Below, one piece after another: positions 5,186 to 7,725 of a DNA stretch of 64,000 nucleotides. The position numbers and the translations under genes were made by a program. The stretch's first letter is position 1, and each line of letters begins with the position of its first letter. The notes under the pieces were generated by a model that saw only the letters and a program-made list of their open reading frames with translations, ran no database searches and was not told where the DNA came from. The stretch is from Aeoliella mucimassa. GTDB lineage: Bacteria; Planctomycetota; Planctomycetia; Pirellulales; Lacipirellulaceae. The stretch covers positions 5,084,001-5,148,000 of the forward strand of contig NZ_CP036278.1 of the NCBI RefSeq assembly GCF_007748035.1, read 5' to 3'.

Positions 5186-5301
5186 CAAGCGAAGTATCTC
5201 TCCGACTTAGCACACGTCACACAAACTGGCACCCCGCAGCACAAGCAAGTAAGCTGGAGGGCCTGTAGTGCATTGCCGTTATTCGTTTCGTGTCGCTTGT
5301 C

Positions 5302-6204
5302 ATGTCAGAACTGCCCCAACTTTCACGCCTGTCGAATATCGACCGTCGCCATTGGCTTTCCAGCAAGCAAGCGCTCACCGCCCTGCAAGCACTTGGGGAG
5401 CGACAAGCGATTACCTGGTTGCGTCAACAGTTCACTTCGCCGGCCGACTTGGAATGGGGCCGCCTGCTTCGCGACCTGAATCCCACCTGGGAAGAACTCA
5501 CCCTATGGATTCGAGGAGATAAAGAACACTGCTTGGTTGGCATCGACGCCCTAGCGGAGTTCACTCCGCACCCCAACACCAACGATCCCACCAAACCGGT
5601 GCTACCGACGGGCGCGACGACCGAGTTGATAAACACAGCGATCGATCAGGCTCTTGCGAAGTACGCCAATCCGCGTCTTGAGAAGACAGTCGCTCGGATA
5701 CACCGAGTCTGGCCAAAACATCGCTCACCTAAGAAGAACATCACGATTCCCCGTTGGCTGCAAAGCGTTGCCGAAGCGCTAGCCGAAAACGATTCGCAAG
5801 TGGTTCGCGGCTGGCACAAGAAGCTGCTCACCAGTGTAGATGCTCCGAAATCCGAGGATGACTTCTGGTTCGCGTTAATTGAGTGCCTTAGCGAAAACAA
5901 CATCGTAGCGGTGGTCGACTGGAGAGAGTTCACCGATGCGATCGTTGAGAGCCTTCAGAGTCTCCGTTCAGCGAGAAACATCGACTTGGACTGGGAAACC
6001 CTGAAGTCGTTCGATGGCGACAACGAGGTCTTCTTTCGTCATGTAAGTGGTTTGGTTGGTAAGACCGGTCGGTCGTTAGTGTCGTTCGACACCGGAGGAG
6101 ATGAGTACGCGTTGACTTTCATGCCAACCAACCACATCCCTAAGTACCACGAGGTGCTCACGAGCAACCTGACGTGGAGCTCGGGCGTCACTAAGTTCGA
6201 CTGA
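5302..6204 (+). CDS. unknown soluble protein, about 300 residues
   Basis: I do not recognise this protein with confidence. It has no signal peptide or membrane segment. The middle part (about residues 110-170) is basic and helical with several Trp residues. The C-terminal third reads as an alternating alpha/beta domain (NNIVAVVDWREFTD, then GRSLVSFDTGGDEYALTF), which faintly recalls DUF6630-like domains; that is a memory-based guess. A GTG at 5290 gives four more residues, but ATG at 5302 is the simpler start. It lies about 115 bases after purM and could be co-transcribed. Its 3' end faces murG across the hairpin-repeat region. Confidence 0.7.
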   Translation: MSELPQLSRLSNIDRRHWLSSKQALTALQALGERQAITWLRQQFTSPADLEWGRLLRDLNPTWEELTLWIRGDKEHCLVGIDALAEFTPHPNTNDPTKPVLPTGATTELINTAIDQALAKYANPRLEKTVARIHRVWPKHRSPKKNITIPRWLQSVAEALAENDSQVVRGWHKKLLTSVDAPKSEDDFWFALIECLSENNIVAVVDWREFTDAIVESLQSLRSARNIDLDWETLKSFDGDNEVFFRHVSGLVGKTGRSLVSFDTGGDEYALTFMPTNHIPKYHEVLTSNLTWSSGVTKFD

Positions 6205-6363
6205 GCTTTCTCTGCGGTTCGATGCCCCTGCCCTTCCAGCTTTTTCGTAGCAATTGGCCACCTCTTGTGCTACAACCAAGGGTGGATATGTGCGCCCGTA
6301 CAGTATTCGGTAGCTGCCGCTGACAGCACTGGCAGCCACATCCCCCGATCGGGTGTTGGCTGT

Positions 6364-6418
6364 GGGAAAATAGATTCCCATCCGGCGAATAGATTCCCAC
6401 CGGTGGGAATCTATTTTC
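6364..6418. repeat. hairpin repeat cluster A: three copies of a 17-bp GGGAAAATAGATTCCCA-type unit
   Basis: Copy 1 at 6364-6380 reads GGGAAAATAGATTCCCA, copy 2 at 6385-6400 is a direct near-copy (GCGAATAGATTCCCAC) and copy 3 at 6403-6418 is inverted (GTGGGAATCTATTTTC). Copy 3 can pair with copy 1 or copy 2, which gives two mutually exclusive hairpins. Each unit is also a small inverted repeat, GGGAA...TTCCC. It lies in the gap between the convergent genes 5302-6204 and murG. Seen directly; function unknown. Confidence 0.8.
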
Positions 6419-6504
6419 GGCCTGTTTCATCACTTACGACGAGAGCATGACAAAAACAGCCTGGAAACATCGAGCAAACTTCACCGCGCGTCGACGTAAG
6501 TCGC

Positions 6505-6559
6505 GGGAAAATAGTTTCCCATCGAATCGTGTTACGCAGTTTTGGGAATCTATTTTCCC
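6505..6559. repeat. hairpin repeat cluster B: inverted pair of the same 17-bp unit
   Basis: The unit at 6505-6521 (GGGAAAATAGTTTCCCA) and its inverted copy at 6543-6559 (TGGGAATCTATTTTCCC) make a 17-bp stem with a single T/T mismatch, around a loop of about 21 bases. Same repeat family as cluster A 90 bases upstream. It ends 30 bases beyond the 3' end of murG. No U-tract follows, so it is not a standard intrinsic terminator, but a hairpin between convergent genes may still stop or protect transcripts. Confidence 0.8.
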
Positions 6560-6588
6560 TGCTGCCAGAGAGATGCTGCTGGTAACCG

Positions 6589-7725
6589 CTAGGCGGCAGC
6601 ATGCAGGAAACCGACGTCGAGAATCTCGCAGCACCGCCGGGCGATGTCGTCGGCGGCGTTCGGGCGAGCCAGCGTTTCCATCGCTTCTCGCATTTGGTTG
6701 CGACGCTCCTGGCTGGCAACGAGTTGCCGGATTTCGGTCGCCAGGCACTCGGTGAGTCGCGCACCCGCTTGCCATTCGTCGACTACCACGCAGGCACCCG
6801 CTTCGGCATACACCCGAGCGTTGGCCATTTGATGATTTTCGGCCGCATCGGGGTACGGCACCACCACGGCCGGCACGCCGGCCAGCGCTAGCTCGGCTAG
6901 CGTGTTGCCCCCCGCGCGGCAAACCACAATATCGGTTTCGAACAACAACGAGGCAAGCTCATCGATATAACTTACGGTCAGCACCCGCGATTGATCGGCC
7001 GGGTAACGAGCTTCGGTCGCCTGCAACTGGCCTTCGCCGGTTTGGTGAACGATGCGCCAGTCCTTCAGCTCGTCGCCAAGCATGGCAACCACCTGCGGCA
7101 TGTGTTGGTTCAAGGTTTGGGCACCGGAGGCTCCGCCGAGAATCACCAGGCGTGGTTCGCGCGACGCTGGCAGTACTGGCTTCTGCTGGCGCTGGCGATA
7201 CTGCTTGAGGAACTGCGGGCGGGAGGGCGTGCCGGTGTGCACCACCTCGGCCAGCGGCGACAAATAGGCGTTCACTTCCGAGAATCCCGTGCAAACCGAT
7301 TCGACCATGCCGGAGAGCCAACGCGTGGTGCGGCCGGTCACGGCGTTTTGTTCCATCAATACCGTCGGAATCCCTCGCCCAACGGCCGCTCGCACGGTCG
7401 CAGCGCTAGCGAAACCACCAAGCCCGATCACGAGCGACGATTGTTGTTCGCGAAGCATCCAAGCGGCGGCCATAAAGCCCATCGCATTGTCGGTAACGAA
7501 CCGCACCGCTTCGATCGGGTTGTGCGGAGCAGGTCGAGCCGGCAAGGCAACGTAGTTGTATCCCGCCGAGCGGACGAGGTGGCGCTCGAAGGGCCGCCCG
7601 GTACCAGCAAACAGGAGCGATACGCCAGGCAGATGGCTTTCGAGAGCCTCGGCCAAAGCCAAACCAGGATGGACATGGCTGGGCGAGCCGCCACCGGCAA
7701 TCACAATTTCAAGCGAACTGGACAT
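6589..7725 (-). CDS. murG: UDP-GlcNAc:undecaprenyl-PP-MurNAc-pentapeptide GlcNAc transferase (lipid II synthase)
   Basis: GT28 family enzyme that adds GlcNAc to lipid I at the cytoplasmic membrane to make lipid II for peptidoglycan. 378 residues. The N-terminal loop AGGGSPSHVHPGLALAEAL stands where most MurGs have GGTGGHIxPALA, so the Gly-rich loop is altered but recognisable. The C-terminal half has GGASGAQTLN and the donor-binding stretch CRAGGNTLAELALAGVPAVV followed by PYPDAAENHQMANA, typical of MurG. The ATG at 7725 opens on the first beta strand. A MurE-like gene lies upstream on the same strand, 371 bases away, so this is a remnant of an envelope cluster rather than a dcw operon. UAG stop. 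Confidence 0.92.
   Translation of the reverse strand: MSSSLEIVIAGGGSPSHVHPGLALAEALESHLPGVSLLFAGTGRPFERHLVRSAGYNYVALPARPAPHNPIEAVRFVTDNAMGFMAAAWMLREQQSSLVIGLGGFASAATVRAAVGRGIPTVLMEQNAVTGRTTRWLSGMVESVCTGFSEVNAYLSPLAEVVHTGTPSRPQFLKQYRQRQQKPVLPASREPRLVILGGASGAQTLNQHMPQVVAMLGDELKDWRIVHQTGEGQLQATEARYPADQSRVLTVSYIDELASLLFETDIVVCRAGGNTLAELALAGVPAVVVPYPDAAENHQMANARVYAEAGACVVVDEWQAGARLTECLATEIRQLVASQERRNQMREAMETLARPNAADDIARRCCEILDVGFLHAAA

Follow-up and report, generated by a model that had tools for sequence, protein, structure and literature searches.

Palindromic repeats beside murG of Aeoliella mucimassa: probably a gene-less copy of a dispersed element whose full-length form encodes a small-terminase-like protein

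The genome of Aeoliella mucimassa (G000) is a single contig of 6,608,792 bases, of which a stretch of 64,000 nucleotides (positions 5,084,001–5,148,000; G+C content 58.3%), hereafter called the window, was analysed. The gap between two convergent genes of the window, namely a forward-strand gene coding for a DUF6630 protein (5290–6204; Pfam PF20335, E = 1.3e-21) and murG on the reverse strand (6589–7725; Pfam PF04101/PF03033), harbours five copies of a 17-bp unit, GGGAAAATAGATTCCCA. Units 1 (6364–6380), 2 (6383–6399) and 4 (6505–6521) are found on the forward strand with 0, 3 and 1 mismatches to this sequence, respectively, and units 3 (6404–6420) and 5 (6543–6559) on the reverse strand with 2 and 0. 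Only 0.10 units are expected by chance in 64 kb, and none of 100 shuffles yielded five or more. A preliminary description, which had placed five units at these positions in a convergent gap, is thereby confirmed; the near-identity that it ascribed to them holds for four units, the exception being unit 2 with its 3 mismatches, and the distance between cluster A (units 1–3) and cluster B (units 4 and 5) is 84 bp rather than 90. The same description had postulated inverted pairing with competing partners. Such pairing is indeed possible between units 1 and 5 (17/17), within a perfect 28-bp palindrome of cluster A (6388–6415, 14/14 paired) and between units 4 and 5 (94%).

The units make up the right half of an element of ∼330 bp (about 6236–6563), which leaves both flanking genes outside and reads, on the forward strand, from a promoter-like left end through hairpin A and a middle stem to hairpin B. 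The left end (6236–6304), absent from the preliminary description, is composed of CCAG, a T-run, GCAATTGGCCACC with GGCCAC at 6256–6261, and the extended -10-like sequence TGCTACAAC (6268–6276). Hairpin A (6383–6420) is formed by units 2 and 3, with unit 1 as an extra left arm, and has counterparts in both families of genomic copies (fam1 and fam2, see below) as well as at the 3' ends of genes for terminase small subunit (TerS)-like proteins. The middle stem (6432–6501), as read from the sequence, pairs ACTTACGACG (6432–6441) with CGTAAGT (6495–6501), and comparable middle hairpins occur in other copies. Hairpin B (6505–6559) consists of unit 4, the loop TCGAATCGTGTTACGCAGTTT and unit 5; the loop motif GAATCG is common to fam2 and other species. 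The right end is approximate (6560–6563), as conservation in fam2 fades ∼4 nt past hairpin B. No U-run is present 3' of either hairpin of the window, so the combination of a GC-rich hairpin and a U-run typical of an intrinsic terminator is lacking, in agreement with the earlier opinion.

A search of the whole genome (6.6 Mb) for the unit, as the preliminary description had proposed, gave 399 matches at up to 3 mismatches, whereas the reversed unit used as a control gave 2. A purely local duplication of no broader significance, the reading reserved for a unit found nowhere else, is refuted by this number together with the fixed spacing of a composite element, and hardly deserves further consideration. 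In 1.26 Mb of the genome, 45 clusters of units with nearly fixed offsets were recognised, and a 226-bp core, mostly 82–96% identical and almost free of indels, is common to 39 copies. Since unbiased stretches contain ∼24 clusters per Mb, ∼150 copies or more are to be expected per genome. The majority of the genomic copies (fam1) follow the same plan as the window element; all 36 scored fam1 copies are intergenic, and copies of the element sit in unrelated flanks. To the left of the fam1 core lie degenerate heptamer arrays and then, ∼150–380 nt upstream, a common left end of the pattern CCA-TTTTCG..GGAATTGGCCACC..TGTTCTAATG, which resembles an extended -10 promoter. This motif is common to fam1, fam2 and the TerS copies, its conservation beginning at CCA ∼18 nt before GGCCAC. 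The members of fam2 have the left end and plan of fam1 and a different unit, GCCCCCA, present in 38 exact copies in A. mucimassa and in none of 59 relatives; their A-to-B stretch measures 164–168 nt in most copies despite a diverging middle.

Several features of the copies were noted in passing. The heptamers upstream of the fam1 core are of four kinds (CCAACTC, CCGCAAT, GGCTGTC and GTCCGTT), shuffled as modules between copies, and the loop of fam1 hairpin A is found both ways round (CCCACCCATGGG / CCCATGGGTGGG), as though it had been flipped between its two arms. At the right end, fam1 copies carry tail arrays of TGGGAATCTATT plus ∼9 variable bases with a period of 20–22 nt, amounting to 0–4 extra units per copy. 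Fam1 copies form long same-strand runs along the chromosome, and the exact fam2 units are biased in strand (28 reverse versus 10 forward). An ORF can be read through the 226-bp fam1 core, but correlated changes alter its residues and older copies contain stops, and a coding role was rejected.

The position of the elements relative to genes might point to a transcript boundary, that is, a terminator or barrier acting in both directions where genes converge. In ten sampled convergent gaps the right end of the core lies 15–284 nt from the convergent stop codon (at most 174 nt in nine of them), the distance in the window being ∼26 nt. However, such a position would suit any gap-dwelling element, 26 of the 36 fam1 copies are located outside convergent gaps, and the window hairpins lack a U-run. 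The evidence for a transcript barrier is thus positional, and this role, while conceivable, seems improbable.

Dispersed bacterial palindromes have usually been traced to transposases, and the preliminary description considered a REP-like element with a tyrosine transposase. Mobilisation of REP/BIME repeats by such an enzyme would be in keeping with intergenic, dispersed palindromes of species-specific sequence. However, none of 14 Y1 transposase matches is internal to an element, TerS being the only gene found inside, and six of the 14 represent nearly identical copies of an IS200-like element, four or more of which are inserted inside fam1 repeats. The Y1 genes, then, mostly belong to IS200-like copies that insert into the repeat and do not mobilise it, which makes this explanation very improbable. 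For the IS200-like element the fam1 repeat is a landing site, insertion having taken place at its AA/TAGATTCCCA unit (L315, L317, L318, L319). A gene resembling, by eye, an IS110-family transposase occupies the same spot of two fam1 copies (16,612 and 6,276,327), and two matches to Acido-Lenti-1 RNA just under the gathering score (L200, 2474–2520 and 1815–1861) lie near a gene for a Y1 transposase and near a fam2 copy.

The full-length form of the element in A. mucimassa is ∼1 kb long and has the same left end, a single TerS-like gene and both hairpins at the 3' end of that gene. In the fam2-type copy at 1,364,510 (L201/L328), the gene sits between the left end and the hairpins, and its product matches the phage terminase small subunit (PHROG 4102, E = 4.5e-15), a profile also matched by all 31 aligned homologues (best E = 1.7e-18). 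The AF2 model of the protein (pLDDT 82) predicts a helix-turn-helix followed by a long helix, and fold comparison returned weak matches to Sf6 gp1 and other phage small terminases. Two more TerS genes (1,926,382–1,927,278 and 4,027,244–4,028,203) contain a fam1 unit within the 3' coding end. These two fam1-type elements share 89% identity over 994 bp, which starts exactly at the left end and stops just past hairpin B, and their flanks are unrelated. With a pN/pS of 0.13 over 158 codons, TerS is under purifying selection. The family was detected in 45 of 60 relatives, a single genome having as many as 11 copies, and many of its genes there lie behind a GGCCAC-type promoter. Inspection of the gene calls revealed no terminase large subunit gene next to any of the three orphan TerS genes of A. 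mucimassa, the large subunit being confined to a separate prophage-like cluster at 590–592 kb. The region 584,500–600,800 (L378, L379) resembles a prophage or gene transfer agent, with genes for ParB-like, acetyltransferase-like, TerS, terminase large subunit, portal and protease proteins; the acetyltransferase–TerS arrangement seemingly occurs in two other families of the order as well (L352, L353).

The left end of the window element aligns to that of the full-length TerS element with a score of 54 (shuffle maximum 31) and the window hairpins (6383–6559) align to the 3' end of the TerS element with a score of 72 (shuffle maximum 34); the left and right parts thus match, in order, the two ends of a fam1-type TerS element. 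The spacing from the left of A to the left of B is 101 nt in fam1 copies and in both fam1-type TerS genes, and 119 nt in the fam2-type TerS gene as compared with 119–120 nt in most fam2 copies; the 122 nt of the window matches neither TerS lineage exactly. At the murG end, the sister species G001 carries a TerS version in the same orientation where the window has its gene-less copy. When units and TerS genes were compared in a cross-matrix, no unit occurred at the 3' end of a TerS gene outside its own genome or a sister species. There are two such unit/TerS pairs in A. mucimassa and likewise two in G019, and G001 has a second, variant pair; no partner of the main G003 unit, GTTTTGCCCCA, was found among the TerS genes detected, the G003 assembly being incomplete. 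Remnants of the TerS start codon were sought in five fam2 copies, none of which aligned to TerS significantly better than shuffles.

Taken together, we consider it probable, at roughly 70%, that the window feature represents the gene-less version of a dispersed element that, at full length, carries a TerS gene together with palindromic sites. The window copy would have kept the left end and the palindromes of a full-length parent and lost the gene, a direction of descent suggested by the shared ends and the murG locus rather than by a dated tree. The earlier idea of a transposon-end remnant comes close to this reading, in which the units are the tail end of a dispersed element and the parent gene is TerS-like and not a transposase.

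Exact fam1 and fam2 units are absent from other species, and the exact window unit gave 29 scattered single matches in other named genomes, as expected by chance. De novo word counts, meanwhile, showed that each sister species has a unit of its own (GTTTTGGGCC in G001, GTTTTGCCCCA in G003) within the same architecture. Another genus (G019, G006) has the unit TTTTGTCCCTA..GGGACAAAA, and exact palindromes of this genus number 70 in G019, 37 in G006 and 0–1 in 58 other genomes. Covariation of hairpins A and B across three species and the window reached 0.183, versus 0.110 ± 0.009 for shuffled and 0.06–0.09 for slid alignments. A nested fold of A-left with B-right scored 0.147, less than the local hairpins, and was discarded as the main structure; RNAalifold retained 6 pairs only, all of hairpin B. 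Two or more species have an element at each of five loci (murG, RNase P RNA, three protein genes), with side and orientation conserved; many copies therefore seem to be ancient, their units apparently having been exchanged in situ. The copy near the RNase P RNA gene (L194; A. mucimassa 122,892–123,268) lies ∼70 nt upstream of it, and one is found in the same place in G001 and G003.

Such conserved positions and the covariation of the hairpins would also be expected of a family of structured non-coding RNA genes with their own promoter, in which hairpins A, middle and B act in RNA (in regulation or as decoys) and the association with TerS is secondary. The conserved extended -10-like left end, a boxA-like GCTGTTTGACAATTTGG in many copies and the orientation of the element, which is that of the neighbouring genes in 17 of 18 tandem gaps, speak for it as well. 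However, no Rfam covariance model matched the elements, G-U versus A-C mismatches display no clear preference for RNA, and the anatomy is shared with the 3' coding end of the TerS gene. On balance, an RNA family is regarded as unlikely.

TerS recognises the pac site of the phage genome, and cosB of lambda has three TerS-binding R sites; non-phage elements encoding their own TerS, the PICIs/SaPIs, are known too (PMC6092414). The elements described here share with phage TerS and pac/cos systems (PHROG 4102, Sf6 gp1 type) a protein that matches TerS and putative sites within its gene. Headful phages have their recognition sites within terS or close to it. The genes found here, however, are orphans away from any capsid cluster, exist in multiple copies and are accompanied by hundreds of candidate sites elsewhere. 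Like PICIs/SaPIs, the element carries its own terS, but it is ∼994 bp long with one gene, and integrase, regulator, replication and interference genes are absent. MITEs are similar in their numerous non-coding, mosaic, intergenic copies, which agree at both ends with a parent that carries a gene, whereas the parent gene here is TerS-like, the left and right ends are unlike, terminal inverted repeats are lacking and no target duplication was seen at two TerS copies. REP/BIME with RAYT, BOX, ERIC and Correia repeats are likewise intergenic dispersed palindromes with species-specific units and modular structure; the present element differs in its partner gene, in its self-contained promoter-like end and in the replacement of the stem sequence together with the partner gene lineage. 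Hence REP-RAYT, MITE, PICI, Rfam and terminator membership each fails on a defining feature, and the element fits none of the described families tested. No description of orphan TerS repeats or of such Planctomycete repeats was found in the open-access literature, although an earlier one may exist.

With the gene-less TerS element as the preferred reading, the palindromes are probably TerS-binding (pac-like) sites. The TerS-like protein may bind the units in trans as pac/cos-like sites, and such binding would account for one unit per family per genome and for a unit that changes with the TerS lineage. The two-turn (21-bp) steps of the tail arrays and the difference between spacings of 101 and 122 would fit arrays of such sites on one helix face. 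Copies might spread through cutting and packaging that depend on a terminase or a phage, which is the least certain step; the head-and-packaging cluster at 584–601 kb (TerS, terminase large subunit, portal) could supply the packaging. No transposase or nuclease was found in the element, nor any target duplications or terminal inverted repeats, and its mobility is deduced from copy number and boundaries only. More tentatively still, and with considerable doubt, the elements may be selfish ones with no gene other than that of a small terminase, each TerS spreading its own packaging-type site through the chromosome; given 100-plus such sites in a genome, a phage-like particle resident there could begin to package chromosomal DNA at defined positions.

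What the full-length copies contain is here a small-terminase gene, and the palindrome changes in step with the lineage of that gene, both between and within species. If TerS does bind these sites, a phage packaging protein would have a novel means of persisting in chromosomes, and the elements might indicate the places at which host DNA is open to packaging and transfer. A large share of the intergenic repeats of this bacterial family can also be readily explained by the TerS element.
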